Shown: positions 1,785 through 10,456 of the stretch, piece by piece | Position numbering within the stretch: position 1 is the stretch's first letter | Layout of the letters: every line of letters starts with the position of its first letter | From: Planctomycetaceae bacterium | GTDB lineage: Bacteria > Planctomycetota > Planctomycetia > Planctomycetales > Planctomycetaceae | Assembly (NCBI GenBank): GCA_900299185.1 | Contig: OMIV01000273.1 | Coordinates: forward strand, 1 to 32,897 | Direction of reading: 5' to 3' | DNA: 32,897 nucleotides | Position numbers and translations under genes: made by a program | The notes under the pieces: model-generated | The model's database searches: none | What the model was told of the DNA's origin: nothing | Seen by the model: the letters and a program-made list of their open reading frames with translations, nothing else

Positions 1785-1863
1785 TGGGACGTATGAGACA
1801 CATGGGTTTGGCGATGCGCTATTGATCGGTACGCAAAACACATTCGTCCTATATGTCTCATGG
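1785..1863. repeat. Inverted pair of 9-bp-period minisatellite fragments (consensus TGGGACnnA)
   Basis: At 1785-1811 three tandem 9-bp units follow TGGGACGTA/TGAGACACA. At 1841-1863 two units of the same pattern occur on the opposite strand. The arms 1793-1806 and 1848-1861 are complementary at 12 of 14 positions, so the pair could fold. It lies between the vWA gene and the sigma factor gene. The same unit recurs inside the giant gene at 2762-2806 and 5191-5217. Confidence 0.6.
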
Positions 1864-1920
1864 CAGTCATCGGCGGTCGTTACCGAACCCGCAATCGCTC
1901 AACGCCAATGGAACAACAGC

Positions 1921-2502
1921 ATGACCGACGAGGCGTCAGCGGAACTCGAACGGCGGTTACGGGCGGGGGATGAACTCGTTCTTACAGACATCCTGCGCAC
2001 TCATGGGCCGCCGGTGCGAGCCGTCCTCAAACGCCGCTTTGGTAGCACGCTGGATGACTCGGATTGGGAAGACGTTCTCGCCGTTGCGCTCTTTCGAGTG
2101 TGGCAGGCGCGGGACCGGTTTGATCCGCTCAAGGCTTCGTTGCGAGTTTGGTTTTTTCGCATCGCGGAGAACGCAGCTCGCGATGTGCTGAAAGTCGGAT
2201 GGCAGAAGGCTCGGTTGCTGGAAGTTGGCGTCGAGCCGATTGCTCTCGCGGAGGTCGCGGCGTTTCGACATCTCGATCTGCCGTTGCCGACCGAGACGCT
2301 GATCTCATCGGAATCTCTGCAAGCCGCGCTGGCTCTATTGCCGGAAGCTCAGCGGCAGATCGTGATGGCCGACGCTCAATCACGAGACGGCATCGTGCCG
2401 AGCGAGCAACTTGGAGCGGAACTCGGCCTGCCGCCGGGCACCGTGCGCGTCTACCGCAAGCGAGCACTCGATCGGCTCAGACGCGAGTTGAGCGAAACGT
2501 GA
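1921..2502 (+). CDS. ECF-type RNA polymerase sigma factor
   Basis: This gene encodes a 193-residue sigma-70 family protein of extracytoplasmic-function size. Region 2 is visible around residues 40-85, with EDVLAVALFRVWQARDRFDP followed by WFFRIAENAARDVLK. Region 4 is at the C-terminus, with LPEAQRQIVMADAQ and the helix-turn-helix AELGLPPGTVRVYRKRALDR. The ATG at 1921 was chosen because the frame upstream of it (open back to 1639) runs through the vWA gene's end and a repeat and has no sigma-like residues. The Shine-Dalgarno signal is weak. The next gene starts 61 bases downstream and encodes a membrane protein with a FecR domain, the usual partner of ECF sigma factors. Co-transcription and regulation of this factor by that protein are inferences. 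Confidence 0.9.
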   Translation: MTDEASAELERRLRAGDELVLTDILRTHGPPVRAVLKRRFGSTLDDSDWEDVLAVALFRVWQARDRFDPLKASLRVWFFRIAENAARDVLKVGWQKARLLEVGVEPIALAEVAAFRHLDLPLPTETLISSESLQAALALLPEAQRQIVMADAQSRDGIVPSEQLGAELGLPPGTVRVYRKRALDRLRRELSET

Positions 2503-2563: not shown

Positions 2564-5500
2564 ATGAGCGAACTCAATGAAGATCTCATCCGCAACCGCG
2601 TTACGGCGGTGCTGCGATTGAATGGGCATGCTCGCGAGTTTGAAGACCTTGAAACGCTGCTGGATGGCGCGGACGCTGAGCCGCTAACGGAAGCGGAGGT
2701 CGCTCGCGTGATGGCTCGGGTGCAGGAGTTGCGAGCTAGCGATGAGACCTCTGTGAAATCAGATGGTTCATCAGGCTCATTCGTCCCATCGGTCCCATAC
2801 GTCTCATCGACTTCGGAAAGACCATTCTTCCGCCATTCGGTGGTCGCCGTTGTTGCTGCCGTCTTCATCGCGGTGGGAATTTTTCTGACACAGCAATCGC
2901 AACGCACCGAGGTTGTTTCGATGCGAACCGGGCCGGCGAATGCGATTGCTCAAGCGGTGCCGCCGATCGTGAAGGCTCCGGCTCTAATTGAGGATGTGCT
3001 TCTCAACTGGAAGCCGTTGGAAGTTCGCGTCGGTGAGACTGTGCAGACCGGTGATCGAGAGCGGCGGCAAGTCGTGCTGCCGGATGGATCGAAGCTGTCA
3101 CTCAATGCCGGGACGAAGATCACTGTCGTTGCTGAGCGGCGCGTGAAGGTGCTCAGCGGCGAAGTGTTTGCCGAAGTGAATTCAGAACCGCAGGGCGACG
3201 GCCCTCTGCCGTTTGTCGTTGAGACGCTGCAGCGCGACGTGACGGCGCTCGGGACGAAGTTTGCAGTGAAGGCGGACAAAGACAGCGGCAATGTCGTTGT
3301 GACTCAAGGCAAGGTGCGTGTTGAGAATGTCGGCTTTCGCTCCGCGAAAGCACGGGGTGCAAATGATGAACGTGATGTCGATACCGGTTCGGCAGGCGAT
3401 CAGACAGACGCAGTTCTCGCGACATCGGATGCTGCTAAGACACAGAGTGTTTTCGCGGAGCGAAAGCCGACGATCATCAACGCTGGTGAGCAGCTCGCGT
3501 TGGCGACGCTCAAGGCCGAAGCGGCGCCGCGAGCTTCGCACTCGGTCGGTTGGACCCGCGATCTGATGACGACGCCTGAGAGCGTCATTGTCCCGAAGAA
3601 TCCGCATGCGGGCGGGTCAGTGCAGGTAGTTGATCCCAACGGACAAGAGATGAACCTGTCGTTGAGGCAGTTTCATGTTGATGTCCATATCGAAGACGGG
3701 TTCGCTCGTACGACGATCGATCAGACGTACTTCAATCACACGTGGCAGCGGCTCGAAGGGACGTTTCGGTTTCCTCTGCCGGCGGATGCGTCGCTGTCGA
3801 GACTGGCGATGTACGTGAATGGGAAGCTCATGGAAGGTGGCATGGTCGAGCGGAACTATGGCCGCAATGTCTTCGAGCAAGTCATGCACACTCGCCGCGA
3901 CCCGGCGTTGCTGGAGTGGATCGACGGCAGCACGTTTCAGATGCGCGTCTTCCCGCTCGAAGCTCGGCAAGAGAAGCGGATCGTCTTGAGCTACTCGCAA
4001 CGACTGCCGTCGGACTATGGGCGTTCGACGTATCGCTTCCCGGCGGGGCATTCGTTGGAAGGCGTCGGTGAGTGGTCGGCGGAAGTGCGGTTGAAGGGCG
4101 GGGCGGCGAAGGCAGGCGAGGAAGAAAAAATACAGACGGGCAAGAGTGGCCGTCCGACGCTCGCTTGGCATAGCCCTTCGCATGTGTTGAGCGCATCAAA
4201 CGATGGCAGCGATCTCGTGCTGAGGGATCGGGAGAAGTACTCGCTGCTGGATCGGGATCTCGTGGTTGAGTTCGATGAGGTCACGAGTGGGATAGGCTTC
4301 CAGCCTGTCAGTCAAACCACGTCAACAAGCGAACGACCTTCCAATTCAACGACGAAGGATCAAGGACGACAGACTGGAAGCCTATCCCACTGGCGATTCT
4401 CCGAGTTCGAGCAAGAGGGCTATCGCTACTTGAGGGTCCGTTATCGGCCTGAGTTGCTGGGAGGTGAGCAGCAGCGCCAGTCGACCAAGCCGGCTCGGCA
4501 TTGGGTGTTCCTCGTCGAGAACTCTGCCGATCGCGATCACGTGCTGGCGAAGACTCAGCAGACGATCGTCAGCACATTGCTGGAGCATGTGGAGCACGGC
4601 GACTCGTTCACGCTCATCCGAGCTGGGACGAAGCCGGAGTTGTTTCGAGGTAAGCCCGTCGCGTGCTCGAAGAAAAACGTCGCGGCGGCGATGGAGTTTC
4701 TCAAAGCGAAGGAGCCGATTGGAGCGCTCGATCTTGGAGCGGCACTCGGCGAGGTCGAGCGGGCTTGTCGAGGTCAGAAAGATTCCATCATCGTGCATGT
4801 GGGCTCGGGCATCGCGGTGCTCGGGGAAACGGATGAGAGCACGCTGCTGCGAAAAGTAGGACGGGCTGGAAGCCCATCCTACGTTGGCATCGCGGTCGGG
4901 AAGCGTTGGTCGAAGTCGTTCATGCAGAACGCCGCCGAGCGGACTCGGGGGATGGTCACGCAGATTAATCCTGATGAGGCCGTCGCTTGGCGCGCGTTTG
5001 AGTTGCTCTCGACGTTCAATGCGCCGCGATTGGTTGATGTCGCGTTTGAGTGCGAGCAACCTGGCGTCACGTTCTTGCCGTTCGAACGACAGATCGCCGA
5101 TGGGCAAGAAGTCGCGGCAGTGACACGGTTGCCGGCGGGGGCACAGTTGCCGCGACGCGTGACGGTTAAAGGCAGTGTCATCGGCGGTCATGGGACGAGT
5201 GGGACCGATGGGACGCAGGGGAGAAAGAGCGTTGCTTTCACGCAGGCGTTGGAAGTTCGTGACGTCGCTCAGCAGGCAAGTTATCTGCCGCGCACTTGGG
5301 CTCGCTTAGAGATTGATCGGCTCGTCGCGCTGGGGGCTGAAGAGCACAAGAACGCGATCATTGATCTCAGCAAAGCGATGTATGTTATGTCGCCGTTCAC
5401 GTCGCTGCTCGTGCTGGAAGACGAGGCGATGTATGAGCAATTCAAAGTTGATCGAGGTCGCAAAGATCATTGGGCGATGTATACCGCTCCGGCTGAGATC

Positions 5501-8500
5501 AAAGTCGTCACCGAAGAAGCAGTGGCGAACAACGATCCGCTCGAAGGCGTGCGTTCGAAGCTGGTCGAGCAAGCAAAGAAGTGGAAGGCGGCGCGCGAGC
5601 AACTCGATACCGCGATTCGTGAGCGACGTTCGCTGACCGACGTGCGGACGTTGGCTCGGAAGGTGCGTGTTGAAGTGGGCGAGACTCGTCGTCTTGCCGA
5701 ACGAGTCCGAGCGAGTGAGCAGACTCAAAGCGACAGCTTGAAGACGTTGTACGACTCGGTGCTGCAAATGCAGTTGTGGCAGCAATGGACTCCGCAGCCG
5801 GTGATCCCGGTGACTCACTACTGGGCCGACGGCAATTGGCAGAACCTTTGGTGGGACGACAGCAGTTCGCTCCAAGGCGTGCGAGATCCCGCGATCAACC
5901 GCTGGGGCCAGACACCGAATCATTGGAGCATGCGGGGACGCGGCATCTCGTCGCGGCCACAACTGCGATTAACGGGGGATGACTTCATTGCCGACGACTT
6001 TGTTTCGTCGTTGTCGTTCCCGCAGAACGGCCTTCCGACACGTTTTGGAATCCGAGACTCCGGCATTAGTGGGATTCGCTCCGACGTCAGCGTTGAGTCG
6101 ATGGAAGATGTGGGCGTGATGATCCTGAAGGGCAATCAGAGCGAGGTGGATAGCGTGCTCTCGATCATCCATCAGGTCGAAGAGTTGAGGGATGCAGGAG
6201 CGTTAGCGCTGCGAAAATGGAGTTTCACCGAATACAACAACGGCAATGGCGTGCTCGACCGAGAGGAGTACCTGCCGTTCTTCATGAGACAGCCGAGCCC
6301 GATGATTGCCGGGCCGGGACCGGGAGTGCTGCCGTCACTCACATTCCAGTTCGCCCAGCGACAGGGCTATTTCTACTATAGCGACAACGCGATCGACGAC
6401 GACGGGGATGAGCTTCAGCAATTCACGCCGCTCGAACTCGGAGGGCTACGGATCGAGCAGAGCTGGAACCGCCCTGAGTTGCTCACGTTTCAATCCATGA
6501 ATGGAGTCCGCAATGGAGTCGACTGGGGCGGAACGCCGGTCTGGGGCGAACACAGTGGCTGGGACTTGGCACCTAGTGGGAGAGTGCTGATGTCGTTTGT
6601 GAGTCCGCAGCCTCAACTGTTTGGCGGCGGCATGAACTTCGGCACGAACGTGGGCTTTATCCCGATGTTCTCAAAGACGAACGTCGAAGGCTTGGATCTC
6701 TACAACGATCAGCCCAACGTGTTCTTGAACTACAGCGGGCACAGCAACTTCGGAACGCTGCCGATGTCACGCGGCGGCTCAATGATGGGCGAGCCGCTGG
6801 GATTCGTCCGCAACAAGTTCATCGCGCCGCAAGGCCGCAGCTATCGAGGCCGCGCAGCGGAGTTTGACTTCGCCAGTGACTTCGACGGGATTCCGCTTCT
6901 ACGAGACAGTGATCGGTTCGACGGTGAAGGCATCAATCCCGAAGTGCGGCACCGATTAAGGACGTCACTTCGCTCGGGCTTGTTCAATATCAATGGTCGC
7001 GTGCCGGGACAGATCAACCTGAATGTGATCTCTCGACCGGATGTACTCGAAGAACTCGTCGCACTTGATGACTGGAATGAGATCACGCTCGATGGCCGCC
7101 TCGTCAAACAACCGCTTGATGAACCGTTCGAGCTTCAGCAAATCGGTGCTGCGACAACGATTCGCAAGATGTTCACATCGGACGCATGGGAGCGCAGTGC
7201 CTTTGAATGGGCTCTTCAACAGGATGTCATTGGGAACCACGGTACTCTTTGGCCGAACGAGTTCGATTCGCTCGCAAAGCTTCGTAAGCCGGTCTCGGTC
7301 AACTGCGAGAACAAGCAGCTCTCGACGGTGGTGCAAGAGGTACTGAGTGGGCTCGGCCTCGGTTGGGGATGGGACAATGCGGCGATGGCGGCTCCCAATG
7401 GCAACGTGCCGATTACGGTGCAGCTCAACAACGTCCCAGCAAGCGAGTGCTTGCGACAGATTCTCGAACCGCATGGCATGAGCTTCATCGTTCAGCCGGG
7501 CAACGTGCGAGTCGTCGCGAAGGACGAGGCTCGTAAGAACTGGATCAATCGCGCGGAGCGAGTCCGGCCACTCGTCGAATACGCGCCGGGATTAAGGACA
7601 TCGCAAGCCGATCGCTTGGCAGTCCTCGAAGCAGAAGGCGGCGAGGCAATGCAGCCTCGACGCGGCTCTGTGGCGAAGGACGCAGCGACGCTTATCAATA
7701 AAGCACGGGCTCGCGGTTGGGAAGAAGTGACGCTGAGATCAGCAGCAGGCTCTGACCGAGCTGGAAGCCCATGCTACCGAGTCGATGGCTCGGGGCGGTT
7801 CATGCTCGATCGCACGTTGGAGTCGGGGCTCAGCGAGCAACTGCGATCGGATGGCTTGCACTCATGGTCGCTGTATCCCGAGATCTCGCTCGGAGCCAAA
7901 CGCACTCTCAGCCGCTTTCATCGCGAGGAGTTTTCGTCGTTCGTTCCGTGGCTCGTGCCGAGCGCGGAGGATCTCAGTATCGGCGGCGATGTGACGCTCG
8001 TGAGCGAGCGTGTCATTCGGATTACTCCGAAGACGGTACGACGGACTTCTAGTCCGTCGATGCCGAAGAACTCGACGACCGACGGACTGGAAGTCCGTCG
8101 TACAACGAAGAGCGTCGAGGCGAAGGATGCCGAGTCGGTGACTGTCTATGTCGAACTCGAATTCGATGCTGAGGCGCGGCTTGTTGAACGGCGGATTTGC
8201 ATGGCCAAAGACGGCGAGAAGGATGTCACAACGATTACTCGCGTGACGTACTCGGCAGACGGACTCGTGCGGGTGTTTGGTCGCGAGAAAGAGCCGCTTG
8301 TCGAGTGCCGCTTCGAACGCAAGGCGATCGAGGCTCCGCAATTCATGCCGCAGACAAAGGGGCTTGTGGTGCTGCCTCTGCCTTATCGAGATCGCTCGCA
8401 CATGGGCTTCGAACTCGTGCGAGACGAACGCACGCCCGAGGACATCGCGAACAATCGCAATGGCAAGATCCACTTTGATCGGCTCAGCGATGAGCAAGTC

Positions 8501-10456
8501 ATGCAGCTCGTGGCGAATTGCTTTGCTCAAAGCGATCAGCCGCTGTTGGTGGAGTTGGTGAAGAGCCGCCGTATGCCGCTGGGGGATGTCATTTCGACGT
8601 CCCACCGGGATGAACCCGACGGAGAAGGAACCCGCGAAGGCTTGCTCGGTTACGCGGTGCTGCTGTCGAGCTTGCATCAATCGGCGGCGGTGAGCGATCT
8701 CGTCGGGCGATTCCCGGACTCGGCGCTGGGGCGGTATCTCGAACACTGCGAGATGCCACTCGCTAATTACGATCTGCATCGCGAGTTCGTGCCGATGAAG
8801 TCCGCGAGCCCCTTCATCAAGCGGCTATGTGCGACTCACAACTTCACGATGAATTGGGCAAGCGGCCGGTACTCGGAGACTCTGCGGTTGCAGAGCGCGA
8901 AGCTGATTGAGCAGATCGATCGCGATTGGGAGTTTGTCGAACGCGAGCTGTTGCCAGGAGACACTCTTTCCCCCCTCGCCCCATCGGGGAGAGGGGCCGT
9001 GGGTGAGGGACTGCCAACCAAGAGCCTCAATCGCGCTTCGCCCCTCACCCCTAACCTCTCTCACCATAGGGGCGAGGGGAATCAGACGTCGGGAGTTGAG
9101 CCGAGCAGAACGGCTTCAACAGCCGTGCTTGCTCAGCGATGGTCAATGCTGCTGTTGATGGCTGAGGCCATCGACCGGAGTCCGCCGATCGACAATGCCG
9201 TTTGGCTGCATATCGCAGAGAAGGCGGCTGCGTTCGAGGGCGACCCGCTGTTGCAGCCGCTCGTGAGGGAGACTCGGTTGTTGTGGTTCGCTCGGGCGGG
9301 ACGTTTGCCGGTGGAACTTTTGCGACACCATTTGACCGAGGCGTTTGAACGCGGGTCGCTGGCGCCACTCAATGCCGAATTGCGGCAAGCAGTGGTCGAT
9401 GCTGCGGGCAGTGATGCTTGGATGAACGCTGTGAATGTCGCCTTTCGCTCCGCGAAAGAGCGTCTTGAGGCTGTGGCTTTGACTGAAGGATCAGAGTCCA
9501 TCACCGACCTGCCGAAGAAGCACTTTCGCGGAGCGAAAGGCGACTATCAGCGAGCTGCGATCGCCGTCTTGCGAATCGAGCTTGCGAATCGGTGCTTCAA
9601 GCTCGGTGACGTGCCGCTGGCTTGGGAGCAATTCAACGCGGCGATCGAAGGACAGTCGCTCGATGAAAATCGTTGGTTGCTCTACCGAGCGTTCGAGTTC
9701 TATCGGCTGACGAACGACTTCAAGGCGGCTGAAGCGTTGATGCCGAAGTTGATCGGGCTGAAGGATGATGCGGCGAAGGGAACTCAAGCGACTGAGAAGT
9801 CGAAGAAGCTGCAACGCATCGTGTTGTCGGCAGAGTTCTGGAAGACAGCGGCTGATGTCGCAGATCATGTGGGTGATGACGAAGAAGCTCTGCGGCGAAG
9901 AGAGCATGCTTACGAGATTGAGTTCGCTCAGTTGCCGGAGCAGGTCAATTCTCAGGAGTTTCAAAACGGCTACGTCAGTTTGTTCGACCGATATCTCAAG
10001 CTGGCTCCGCGAGTGAGTGCTCGGAAGCCGGCAGAAGTCGATGAGTTCGCAGCACGAGTTCGCAAGGCGGCTCAACGTTGGATGAGCATCGCTCCCGATG
10101 ATGCCGTGGCGAGCGAAGCTGCGGCCAAGGTCTTCATGATGCTTGGTCGTTGGGACACCGCTTGGGAGTATTGGACCGTTCCCGCTGCTCAAGCACCGGA
10201 TCGTTCGACCGTGTGGCAACTGATGGCTCAGAAGCTGGAACAACATCATCGAGTCAATGAGGCCGACTCTGCTTGGTTGCGGGCGATCGAATGTGAGCCC
10301 ACGAATCCTGATTTGCTGGAGCAGCGTGCCGCATTGCAAGGTCGCCTCGGTCAACACGGACGCGAGCGACAACTGCTGGACGAGATTGTGACGGGCAAGT
10401 GGCAACCGCGATTTGCTCCAACGGTCGAGCGTGCGAAGCAGAAGTTGGCGAAGTAG
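2564..10456 (+). CDS. Giant membrane-anchored FecR-VIT-vWA-STN-TPR-like protein (2630 aa)
   Basis: The start is supported by AGAGGA at 2551-2556, 7 bases before the ATG. Residues 1-88 are probably cytoplasmic, and one helix (about 89-112, VVAVVAAVFIAVGIFL) spans the membrane. A FecR domain (about 157-255) includes LPDGSKLSLNAGTK. A VIT domain (about 363-483) includes LEGTFRFPLPADASLS. A vWA-like fold (about 646-786) has ENSAD where DxSxS is expected, so metal binding is probably lost. MSPFTSLLVLEDEAMYEQF follows at about 942. Residues 996-1075 look coiled-coil, about 1174-1209 resembles a secretin N-type domain, and 1224-1235 is a degenerate EF-hand. An STN-like domain is at about 1576-1656 and TPR-like helical repeats at about 2330-2630. 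Located just after an ECF sigma gene, it may be an anti-sigma/sensor. Several dispersed repeats are embedded in frame. Much of 1080-1570 is unrecognised. Confidence 0.85.
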   Translation: MSELNEDLIRNRVTAVLRLNGHAREFEDLETLLDGADAEPLTEAEVARVMARVQELRASDETSVKSDGSSGSFVPSVPYVSSTSERPFFRHSVVAVVAAVFIAVGIFLTQQSQRTEVVSMRTGPANAIAQAVPPIVKAPALIEDVLLNWKPLEVRVGETVQTGDRERRQVVLPDGSKLSLNAGTKITVVAERRVKVLSGEVFAEVNSEPQGDGPLPFVVETLQRDVTALGTKFAVKADKDSGNVVVTQGKVRVENVGFRSAKARGANDERDVDTGSAGDQTDAVLATSDAAKTQSVFAERKPTIINAGEQLALATLKAEAAPRASHSVGWTRDLMTTPESVIVPKNPHAGGSVQVVDPNGQEMNLSLRQFHVDVHIEDGFARTTIDQTYFNHTWQRLEGTFRFPLPADASLSRLAMYVNGKLMEGGMVERNYGRNVFEQVMHTRRDPALLEWIDGSTFQMRVFPLEARQEKRIVLSYSQRLPSDYGRSTYRFPAGHSLEGVGEWSAEVRLKGGAAKAGEEEKIQTGKSGRPTLAWHSPSHVLSASNDGSDLVLRDREKYSLLDRDLVVEFDEVTSGIGFQPVSQTTSTSERPSNSTTKDQGRQTGSLSHWRFSEFEQEGYRYLRVRYRPELLGGEQQRQSTKPARHWVFLVENSADRDHVLAKTQQTIVSTLLEHVEHGDSFTLIRAGTKPELFRGKPVACSKKNVAAAMEFLKAKEPIGALDLGAALGEVERACRGQKDSIIVHVGSGIAVLGETDESTLLRKVGRAGSPSYVGIAVGKRWSKSFMQNAAERTRGMVTQINPDEAVAWRAFELLSTFNAPRLVDVAFECEQPGVTFLPFERQIADGQEVAAVTRLPAGAQLPRRVTVKGSVIGGHGTSGTDGTQGRKSVAFTQALEVRDVAQQASYLPRTWARLEIDRLVALGAEEHKNAIIDLSKAMYVMSPFTSLLVLEDEAMYEQFKVDRGRKDHWAMYTAPAEIKVVTEEAVANNDPLEGVRSKLVEQAKKWKAAREQLDTAIRERRSLTDVRTLARKVRVEVGETRRLAERVRASEQTQSDSLKTLYDSVLQMQLWQQWTPQPVIPVTHYWADGNWQNLWWDDSSSLQGVRDPAINRWGQTPNHWSMRGRGISSRPQLRLTGDDFIADDFVSSLSFPQNGLPTRFGIRDSGISGIRSDVSVESMEDVGVMILKGNQSEVDSVLSIIHQVEELRDAGALALRKWSFTEYNNGNGVLDREEYLPFFMRQPSPMIAGPGPGVLPSLTFQFAQRQGYFYYSDNAIDDDGDELQQFTPLELGGLRIEQSWNRPELLTFQSMNGVRNGVDWGGTPVWGEHSGWDLAPSGRVLMSFVSPQPQLFGGGMNFGTNVGFIPMFSKTNVEGLDLYNDQPNVFLNYSGHSNFGTLPMSRGGSMMGEPLGFVRNKFIAPQGRSYRGRAAEFDFASDFDGIPLLRDSDRFDGEGINPEVRHRLRTSLRSGLFNINGRVPGQINLNVISRPDVLEELVALDDWNEITLDGRLVKQPLDEPFELQQIGAATTIRKMFTSDAWERSAFEWALQQDVIGNHGTLWPNEFDSLAKLRKPVSVNCENKQLSTVVQEVLSGLGLGWGWDNAAMAAPNGNVPITVQLNNVPASECLRQILEPHGMSFIVQPGNVRVVAKDEARKNWINRAERVRPLVEYAPGLRTSQADRLAVLEAEGGEAMQPRRGSVAKDAATLINKARARGWEEVTLRSAAGSDRAGSPCYRVDGSGRFMLDRTLESGLSEQLRSDGLHSWSLYPEISLGAKRTLSRFHREEFSSFVPWLVPSAEDLSIGGDVTLVSERVIRITPKTVRRTSSPSMPKNSTTDGLEVRRTTKSVEAKDAESVTVYVELEFDAEARLVERRICMAKDGEKDVTTITRVTYSADGLVRVFGREKEPLVECRFERKAIEAPQFMPQTKGLVVLPLPYRDRSHMGFELVRDERTPEDIANNRNGKIHFDRLSDEQVMQLVANCFAQSDQPLLVELVKSRRMPLGDVISTSHRDEPDGEGTREGLLGYAVLLSSLHQSAAVSDLVGRFPDSALGRYLEHCEMPLANYDLHREFVPMKSASPFIKRLCATHNFTMNWASGRYSETLRLQSAKLIEQIDRDWEFVERELLPGDTLSPLAPSGRGAVGEGLPTKSLNRASPLTPNLSHHRGEGNQTSGVEPSRTASTAVLAQRWSMLLLMAEAIDRSPPIDNAVWLHIAEKAAAFEGDPLLQPLVRETRLLWFARAGRLPVELLRHHLTEAFERGSLAPLNAELRQAVVDAAGSDAWMNAVNVAFRSAKERLEAVALTEGSESITDLPKKHFRGAKGDYQRAAIAVLRIELANRCFKLGDVPLAWEQFNAAIEGQSLDENRWLLYRAFEFYRLTNDFKAAEALMPKLIGLKDDAAKGTQATEKSKKLQRIVLSAEFWKTAADVADHVGDDEEALRRREHAYEIEFAQLPEQVNSQEFQNGYVSLFDRYLKLAPRVSARKPAEVDEFAARVRKAAQRWMSIAPDDAVASEAAAKVFMMLGRWDTAWEYWTVPAAQAPDRSTVWQLMAQKLEQHHRVNEADSAWLRAIECEPTNPDLLEQRAALQGRLGQHGRERQLLDEIVTGKWQPRFAPTVERAKQKLAK
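2762..2806 (-). repeat. In-frame 9-bp minisatellite, five units (TGGGACnnA, minus orientation)
   Basis: On the minus strand five consecutive 9-mers run as TGAGACGTA, TGGGACCGA, TGGGACGAA and two decayed units. Nine bases equal three codons, so the frame of the giant gene is kept. The insert encodes residues 67-81, a Ser/Val/Pro-rich stretch with SFVPSVPYVS just before the membrane helix. Confidence 0.7.
3329..3471. repeat. REP-like inverted repeat pair, TTTCGCTCCGCGAAAG family, in frame
   Basis: The arm at 3329-3353 is complementary to 3447-3471 at 24 of 25 positions, and each arm holds the palindromic core CTTTCGCTCCGCGAAAG. The 93-base interior carries no recognised domain. The pair encodes residues 256-303, directly after the FecR domain and before the VIT domain. 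The left arm reads as GFRSAKA and the right arm as FAERKPT. A second copy of the family occurs at 9438-9544. Confidence 0.8.
4287..4390. repeat. REP-like inverted repeat pair, GGCTTCCAGCCTGTC family, in frame
   Basis: The arm at 4287-4309 (beginning GTGGGATAGGCTTCCAG) matches the reverse complement of 4368-4390 at 22 of 23 positions. The pair encodes residues 575-609, between the VIT and vWA-like domains, with the peptides IGFQPVS and RQTGSLSH. These peptides are familiar in planctomycete proteins as translated dispersed repeats. Confidence 0.8.
4856..4882. repeat. Single REP-like palindrome GTAGGA..GCTGGAAGC..TCCTAC, in frame
   Basis: The 27-bp near-perfect palindrome has 12-base arms with one mismatch around a GGA centre. 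It shares the CTGGAAG core with the elements at 4287-4390 and 8036-8103. It encodes residues 765-773 (GRAGSPSY) in a probable surface loop of the degenerate vWA-like domain. Confidence 0.7.
5191..5217 (+). repeat. In-frame 9-bp minisatellite, three units (TGGGACnnA, plus orientation)
   Basis: The units TGGGACGAG, TGGGACCGA and TGGGACGCA lie in tandem. They encode GTSGTDGTQG at about residues 876-886. The orientation is opposite to the copy at 2762-2806, so the same repeat gives unrelated peptides in one protein. Confidence 0.75.
7760..7777 (+). repeat. Degraded half-copy of the GCTGGAAGCCCAT palindrome, in frame
   Basis: These 18 bases match 4865-4882 at 17 positions, but the left arm of the palindrome has been lost. 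It encodes RAGSPCY at about residues 1732-1738, parallel to RAGSPSY at 765-773. It looks like an older, decayed insertion. Confidence 0.6.
8036..8103. repeat. REP-like inverted repeat pair, GACGGACTTCTAGTCCGTC family, in frame
   Basis: The arms 8036-8059 and 8080-8103 are complementary at 23 of 24 positions. Each arm is itself a palindrome around CTTCTAG or CTGGAAG. The pair encodes residues 1825-1847, with RRTSSPSMPKN and DGLEVRRTT. It lies in a linker after the STN-like domain. Confidence 0.8.
8972..9079. repeat. Dispersed CCCCTCGCCCC / GGGGCGAGGGG inverted repeat, in frame
   Basis: The C-rich arm at 8972-9009 (with CCCCTCGCCCCATCGGGGAG) pairs imperfectly with 9041-9079 (ending GGGGCGAGGGG). 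The pair encodes residues 2137-2172, including LSPLAPSGRGAVGEG and PLTPNLSHHRGEG. Sequences of this form are dispersed in several bacterial phyla. Here it sits between a conserved segment and the C-terminal helical repeats. Confidence 0.75.
9438..9544. repeat. Second REP-like pair of the TTTCGCTCCGCGAAAG family, in frame
   Basis: The arms 9438-9461 and 9521-9544 are complementary at 23 of 24 positions. They encode residues 2292-2327, with VAFRSAKE and HFRGAKGD. The left arm uses the same reading frame as the copy at 3329-3471, but the right arm uses a different one. Confidence 0.8.

Follow-up and report, generated by a model that had tools for sequence, protein, structure and literature searches.

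In-frame palindromic elements of several families in a giant planctomycete FecR-VIT-vWA gene and at shared sites in its relatives

Introduction

How does one protein-coding gene come to hold several families of palindromic repeats while its reading frame stays open, and what do the inserted peptides mean for the protein? Both questions are raised by a gene of 2,630 codons in a Planctomycetaceae bacterium. Since the Rickettsia reports, of which those by Ogata et al. in 2000 and 2002 are reportedly the original ones, it has been an open question whether palindromes in coding DNA are inert or can give rise to new protein sequence.

Several known systems offer a comparison. Rickettsia palindromic elements (RPEs), as described in reviews, are approximately 105-150 bp long, fall into ten families and lie in frame and free of stops in unrelated protein genes (PMC10969869, PMC2229807). 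Intragenic GTAG/CGTC REP dimers are described as encoding 20-30 amino acids and their clusters 43-82 amino acids; double insertions in single genes are on record, e.g., in both uvrA genes of O. terrae, tolerance of intragenic REPs in flexible linkers has been proposed, and families have been reported in Planctomycetes (Di Nocera 2013, PMC3733652, in its accessible sections). REPINs, in turn, are described as inverted hairpin pairs with a less conserved spacer that are primarily extragenic; in SBW25, the 16-mers of highest abundance number about a thousand (Bertels and Rainey 2011, PMC3116915, likewise).

Results and discussion

Palindromic sites in a single open frame

The window, which is the whole of contig C273 (32,897 nucleotides) from a genome of 7.87 Mb in 383 contigs, carries on its plus strand one open frame of 2,630 amino acids without a stop (2564-10456). 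The predicted protein has FecR (aa 159-252), VIT (aa 367-477), vWA (aa 648-797, VWA_3), STN (aa 1612-1653) and TPR (aa 2571-2603) matches. A gene for an ECF-type sigma factor (1822-2502, plus strand) lies directly upstream, and this factor and the FecR domain may be functional partners. The STN match (window 7397-7522) was found in the window gene and was absent from the four orthologues scanned; conservation was scant in the centre of the gene (approximately aa 1000-1660).

Seven palindromic sites within this frame belong to four arm families, all of which recur in the genome. Family F1 accounts for a pair just after the FecR domain (3329-3471; arms of 25 nt, 96% complementary, with a GTCG foot and a TTTCGCTCCGCGAAA core) and a second pair at 9437-9544, whose arms can be taken as 30 nt (93%) or 35 nt (89%); neither spacer has another copy in the genome sample described below. 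F5, with GTGGGATAGGCTTCCAGCCTGTC arms, is represented by a pair in the VIT-vWA linker (4286-4391; arms of 24 nt, 96% complementary), by a single F5-type palindrome of nine codons in a loop of the vWA domain (4856-4882, aa 765-773) and by a half-copy (7757-7777) in a loop that contains two other families in relatives. The F4 pair (GTACGACGGACTT..) at 8036-8103 also has arms of 24 nt that are 96% complementary, and F4 is related to F5, as the F5 pattern also matches 8081-8103. Finally, the F6 pair (CCCCTCGCCCC..) at 8972-9079, between predicted C-terminal helices, has arms of 38 nt with 76% complementarity. The first-pass annotation of this DNA had described paired and single palindromes and a half-copy in one stop-free frame of 2,630 codons, and we found them where it had placed them. 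Its view that most of the sites lie between domains was right for the site after FecR and for the VIT-vWA linker but not for the palindrome at 4856-4882, which lies within the vWA match.

Two stretches taken for minisatellites in that annotation turned out to be short imperfect runs. Tandem Repeats Finder reported neither, and the tandem-repeat reading was rejected on this ground. One of them, a GTCCCAT-type run at approximately 2769-2820, is near an N-terminal site that holds elements in five relatives, while the other (5189-5224) is specific to the window gene and partly complementary to the first, with 26 nt of one being 88% complementary to the other.

According to AlphaFold2 models built from six-sequence alignments (mean pLDDT 57 and 68), nearly all sites are predicted to fall in loops, largely with pLDDT below 50, the 9437 pair excepted in part. 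The 3329 insert was placed in a low-confidence stretch past the last FecR strand. Two strands flank each of the stretches of pLDDT <50 that contain the 4286 insert, the 8036 insert and the 5189 run. In the models the vWA palindrome lies where a helix gives way to a strand, the 7757 half-copy precedes a strand, and helices bound the long low-confidence stretch that contains the 8972 pair, whereas the 9437 pair starts within a predicted helix and continues through the following loop. The low pLDDT values arise in part because the inserts have no aligned homologues.

Absence of the inserts from orthologues

A search of 59 genomes, including the bacterium's own, yielded five orthologues; no relative was found on the contigs scanned with the single window protein as query. 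Each orthologue is a single open frame of 2,015-2,212 amino acids. In the alignment with them, the stretches of the five paired inserts were specific to the window gene, including the F1 pair at 3329-3471. This was the comparison that the first-pass annotation had proposed, and it came out as anticipated; conservation of the paired inserts across species was not seen in the five orthologues or in the aligned relatives. The case for specificity is weaker for the vWA palindrome, which represents a net gain of a few residues over the orthologues, one of which (G013) has a different, longer insertion at this loop. The half-copy at 7757-7777 was not among the stretches specific to the window gene. 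We also considered whether the two arms of the 3329-3471 pair could have been inserted separately around old host sequence, and discarded this possibility, as the spacer is missing from ten aligned relatives as well.

The assembly is fragmented (383 contigs) and has transposon-adaptor sequence at contig ends, so that one might suspect several fused genes, or intergenic repeats that are read through, instead of a genuine giant gene. Assembly error is nevertheless unlikely because the five orthologues are each one uninterrupted gene, in the same order and without the five paired inserts. In addition, codon usage was of the coding type on both flanks of the four strict pairs in the window, and the adaptor search listed no match within the window. 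We therefore regard an artefact of assembly or annotation as extremely improbable and rejected it; the joining of several genes, which the first-pass annotation had named as a way for its reading to fail, was not found. As to the adaptor itself, 15 matches were found in the genome sample, and the eight that were listed are at most some 50 bases away from the end of a contig (e.g., at L081, L085, L113, L136, and L145). They represent an assembly contaminant, which we take to be the Nextera adaptor.

Elements at shared loops of relatives

We then used a FecR-VIT-vWA profile search, which gave 53 loci, five of them on the contigs of the five orthologues. Most are named Planctomycetota and a few otherwise (e.g., L189, L231, and L235). 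Paired elements were present in 12 of the 53 frames, several of which are cut by contig ends, and numbered 34 in 281,634 nt, compared with 1 after one round of codon shuffling; in the other 41 relatives the scan used detected no paired element. L205 and L239 have seven elements each, L189 and L230 five each, L201 and L203 two each, and L193, L212, L219, L232, L233, and L237 one each, although the L193 and L203 elements close to the 5' end may be upstream of the actual start. The remaining coding DNA of the same 53 loci had 8 elements in 306,303 nt, which corresponds to a 4.6-fold higher density in the gene family (one-sided P 1.1e-5). These 34 elements are not independent, because 24 of them are in four related genomes and some were inherited or exchanged. 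The L237 frame (6854-8176) covers 54% of the match and has a large inverted pair, and is possibly a disrupted copy.

The four relatives with most elements (L189, L205, L230, and L239) are 73-76% identical to one another in protein and 76-79% in DNA, and 41-43% identical to the window gene in protein. At five places, unrelated elements occupy the same site in different members of this group, the elements being 0.36-0.61 and their flanks 0.72-0.89 identical. Where the elements at a shared site are related, their identity is 0.84-0.97, or 0.67 in one additional same-family pair, and four of the six related-element pairs common to two species exceed the identity of their flanks by at least 0.10. 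The loop of the 8036 pair, which follows the motif ERTIRIT (ERVIRIT in the window gene), contains F4 in the window gene and one other family in both L189 and L230, but no element in L205 or L239. Likewise, the 9437 site is filled by F1 in the window gene, by one family common to L205 and L239 and by another in L230, and is empty in L189. The 5189 loop holds an F5-type element in L189, two other families in L205 and L239, and no element in L230. In the VIT-vWA linker, F5 in the window gene is matched by one family common to L189 and L239 and by another in L201. At one site in L205, two families adjoin. The lengths of filled and empty alleles (132 versus 51 nt, and 105 versus 60 nt) are multiples of three apart, a necessity if both frames are open. 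No single tree fits the way in which elements are shared among the four relatives, and exchange or repeated gain and loss among them is therefore likely.

The extent of site sharing depended on the null model. The 17 site-family events in the four relatives, with families assigned by eye, fell into 9 clusters, compared with 15.5 expected under uniform placement (0 of 20,000 draws as low), 13.5 for equal draws from 54 indel junctions of the other orthologues (P 0.004), and 11.7 when the junctions were weighted by insertion frequency (P 0.07). With the window gene added, 24 events formed 12 clusters (0 of 20,000 uniform draws; P 0.004 for junctions and 0.13 for weighted junctions). Four of the seven palindromic sites in the window gene lie within 12 residues of a site in a relative (P 0.005 uniform, 0.011 for indel junctions), but only two of seven within 5 or 8 residues (P 0.05 and 0.11; range over the tests 0.05-0.18). 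Site sharing far exceeds a random distribution along the gene, and most of it may be explained by loop tolerance.

Element frequency in the host genome

In the bacterium's own genome, 31 elements were located in 20 predicted frames; two of these elements, at L079, come with stops and were dropped from a later comparison. The hosts of in-frame elements include VIT-vWA, HEAT-cytochrome, WD40-Roc, and LRR-Roc-COR-TIR proteins; the latter two are encoded at L177 (8218-11403) and L136 (3130-5853), respectively. For a comparison with chance, the first 20 kb of contigs C221-C341 and the window were sampled (121 contigs, 1,615,726 bases, and 1,038 genes predicted by a purpose-written codon-usage script), and an element was counted wherever two inverted arms of 20 nt or more, with a complementarity of 80% or higher, were separated by no more than 200 nt. 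After two elements at contig ends were dropped, 17 were in predicted coding frames, 87 were intergenic and 6 partly overlapped genes. Given that 81% of the sample is coding, elements were under-represented in coding DNA, as would be expected if most coding insertions are removed. This coding-versus-intergenic count had been put forward as a check in the first-pass annotation, and its outcome agrees with the selection proposed there.

The window gene alone accounts for 4 of the 17 coding elements, compared with 0.079 expected (P 1.5e-6), or approximately 50 times its share; the 8972 pair, at 76% complementarity, falls below the 80% cut and is outside this count. In comparison with other genes of >1,000 amino acids, and with the two doubtful L079 elements dropped, 4 elements were observed against 0.22 expected (P 8e-5), an 18-fold density. 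The density in one gene had initially been put forward as the novelty, but it is not unique: a 2,169-aa gene at L053 (C50), on a contig chosen for holding F1 copies, also has four elements, and orthologues of the window gene have up to seven. Two genes at L057 have two and three elements.

Codon-shuffled versions of the window gene and the five orthologues gave 0 pairs in 5 rounds. Across 101 sample contigs, 97 elements (those at contig ends included) were found versus 6 in a Markov control, and a strict scan for hairpin pairs found 14 in 1.38 Mb versus 0 in the control. Single hairpins in the same strict scan of 1.38 Mb showed no excess over the control (4,774 versus 4,900).

Families, reading frame and mobility

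The arms of F1 have the form GTCG-(G/C)CTTTCGCTCCGCGAAAG, and close arms follow the order plus then minus. Its spacers range from 4 nt to >100 nt, and 50-bp short forms also occur. Four spacers from the window had no match elsewhere in the sample above background; the arms do recur. Half of the distinct F1 pairs examined (16 of 32, from 20 loci on contigs partly chosen for F1) are in coding frames. For every F1 pair listed, the sequence on either side had a positive codon score, and the arms are read in all three forward frames. F1 flanks, where a target-site duplication would be expected, often read GATN..N'ATC. In 12 of 14 intergenic but only 2 of 16 coding copies, the bases just outside the GTCG foot at the two ends are complementary to each other (P 1.3e-4); different subfamilies, selection on RNA hairpins between genes or insertion into palindromic targets are possible causes.

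The first-pass annotation had also proposed to look at whether repeat lengths are divisible by three. For F1 they mostly are not: with two overlapping copies set aside, unit lengths leaving remainders of 2, 0, and 1 numbered 13, 3, and 0 in coding DNA and 8, 5, and 1 in intergenic DNA, i.e., 3n+2 in 13 of 16 and 8 of 14 copies, respectively. As the two distributions did not differ significantly (P 0.24), the F1 unit itself is no codon multiple, and a unit length divisible by three was discarded as the rule.

Families differed in how often they enter genes. Outside the window gene, F1 had 3 coding, 4 intergenic and 1 edge element, while F2 had 1 coding and 43 intergenic (P 0.006). With L079 left out and overlapping hits merged, the coding to intergenic ratio outside the window gene was 9:29 for the families that the window gene contains (F1, F4, F5, and F6) and 4:84 for those not found in it (F2, F3, F7, and F8; P 0.0026). 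On average, 4.0 of 6 frames are open in an intergenic F1 copy, versus 2.3 in length-matched random intergenic DNA. Yet the arms of F7 and F8 are open in 5.0 and 5.75 of 6 frames and are almost solely intergenic, so that freedom from stops alone fails to predict which families enter genes, and stop-free arms were rejected as the whole reason.

A hairpin core, CGCTCCGCG, was found in 64 sample hairpins with complementary outer stems of 15 sequences, some differing only in length; none of 60 shuffled cores had more than 4 hairpins. Most of these hairpins are F2 arms with a CTACGTAG foot, of which 82 of 83 are intergenic. The foot is GTCG in F1 and GTAG in F2 and F3. Elements of other families were noted by eye inside F1 spacers at L060, L062, and L057, and this nesting indicates mobility. 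The small palindromes in the window gene are probably mobile as well.

Tolerance, target choice or recruitment

We consider it probable that REPIN-like, non-autonomous palindromes insert widely and that selection keeps those insertions that are in frame and free of stops in permissive loops. Under this explanation, several families of small palindromes, each composed of two inverted hairpin units and a spacer, would insert throughout the genome, and the survivors within genes would be frame-keeping, stop-free insertions in flexible loops. Survivors would accumulate in this gene family because a long multidomain protein has many permissive loops, and unrelated families would thus reach the same loops in different lineages. 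The inserted peptides would then be interchangeable filler that turns over, presumably close to neutral, with purifying selection acting as the putative filter. The absence of the paired inserts from orthologues, the scarcity of elements in coding DNA and the mostly predicted loop positions all speak for tolerated insertion in linkers with selection for an open frame, as the first-pass annotation had suggested.

Tolerance may be only part of the story if one insertion begets the next, with a palindrome or its remnant in a loop being a preferred target, such that newcomers land in or beside it and replace it. The nested elements seen by eye in the own genome, the two families adjoining at one L205 site and the five sites with different families in close relatives would all fit such a process. 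On the other hand, four of the seven window sites are within 12 residues of sites in relatives despite only 41-43% protein identity, and ancestral occupants at this evolutionary distance are hypothetical. On balance we find this process rather unlikely, and equally doubt that recurrence at the same site reflects target choice beyond mere tolerance. Recruitment, in which selection would favour longer or more hydrophilic linkers in this protein and draw on mobile palindromes as a ready supply, appears less likely still. The element density, 4.6-fold that of neighbouring coding DNA in relatives and 18-fold that of the remaining large genes sampled from the own genome, is in its favour, as is the high identity of four of the six related-element pairs relative to their flanks. 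Exchange or recent gain, however, explains that identity equally well, the families and peptides at one site vary between species with some sites empty elsewhere, and 41 of 53 relatives have no element by the scan. Selective retention of tolerated insertions thus remains our preferred explanation. More tentatively, and with more doubt than confidence, we suggest that planctomycete FecR-VIT-vWA giants, here beside an ECF sigma gene, are a recurrent landing pad in which unrelated palindromes are gained, lost and replaced at the same loops. If so, mobile DNA would be a standing source of new linker sequence and no occasional accident.

In either case, the gene family provides replicated natural experiments, in which related species have different elements, or none, in the same loop. 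Such natural replicates permit direct tests of tolerance, turnover and function, and they chart the positions at which a large multidomain protein permits insertions.

Relation to known elements and candidate transposases

In-frame coding palindromes are already known; what is new here is that several element families have repeatedly used the same loops within a single gene family. As with RPEs, with which we compare by description, stop-free palindromes lie in frame in unrelated coding genes of the own genome; they differ in belonging to another phylum, in the several families within one gene and in the different families at the same loops. Compared with the intragenic REPs, for which the accessible sections describe genes hit twice, up to seven elements of several families are present in one gene, different lineages have reused homologous loops, and the F1 foot is GTCG as opposed to GTAG/CGTC. 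The F1, F4, F5, and F6 pairs of the window resemble REPINs in having two inverted hairpins around a spacer, and MITEs in having terminal inverted repeats. Unlike REPINs, F1 is not confined to extragenic DNA and has no GTAG foot, and its 72 palindromes (places with CTTTCGCNNNGCGAAAG in the 7.87-Mb genome) are below the hundreds typical of REPINs. Among the matches listed in our literature search, which covered titles and the openings of abstracts and included few subscription papers, we found no sharing of the loops of one gene family by several families; the cited passages describe none either, and a search on the FecR-VIT-vWA protein returned nothing.

Transposition may be carried out by RAYT-type (Y1 tyrosine) enzymes. 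Three Y1 transposase matches were found in the genome. The gene at L077 (7900-8562) has HVH and YIANNP motifs and matches NF047646 (REP-associated tyrosine transposase) with 53.5 bits, below the cut-off of 80. It is located between two F3 pairs containing CGCTCCGCG, the nine bases that F1 also has; a Y1 gene flanked by related pairs recalls REPIN-RAYT systems. None of the three Y1 genes is flanked by F1 itself, and one of these enzymes, or one like them, is at most a candidate transposase for F1. Planctomycete class 3 Y1 enzymes are described, in the accessible part of the source, as having a CnGA foot (PMC6006769). The repeat finder gave no inverted pairs around the other two Y1 genes, at L085 (8450-9230) and L108 (6000-6760), where several hairpin-like motifs with unlike stems were seen by eye on each side. 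A further family, GGGGTCAGGCACTTCGGAAATTCGGAATTGGGCG, has inverted arms of 31-35 nt and a length of approximately 94-102 bp; its copies at L089 (1775-1876), L136 (11691-11792), L079 (18684-18785), and L115 (2961-3054) are intergenic or overlap gene ends.
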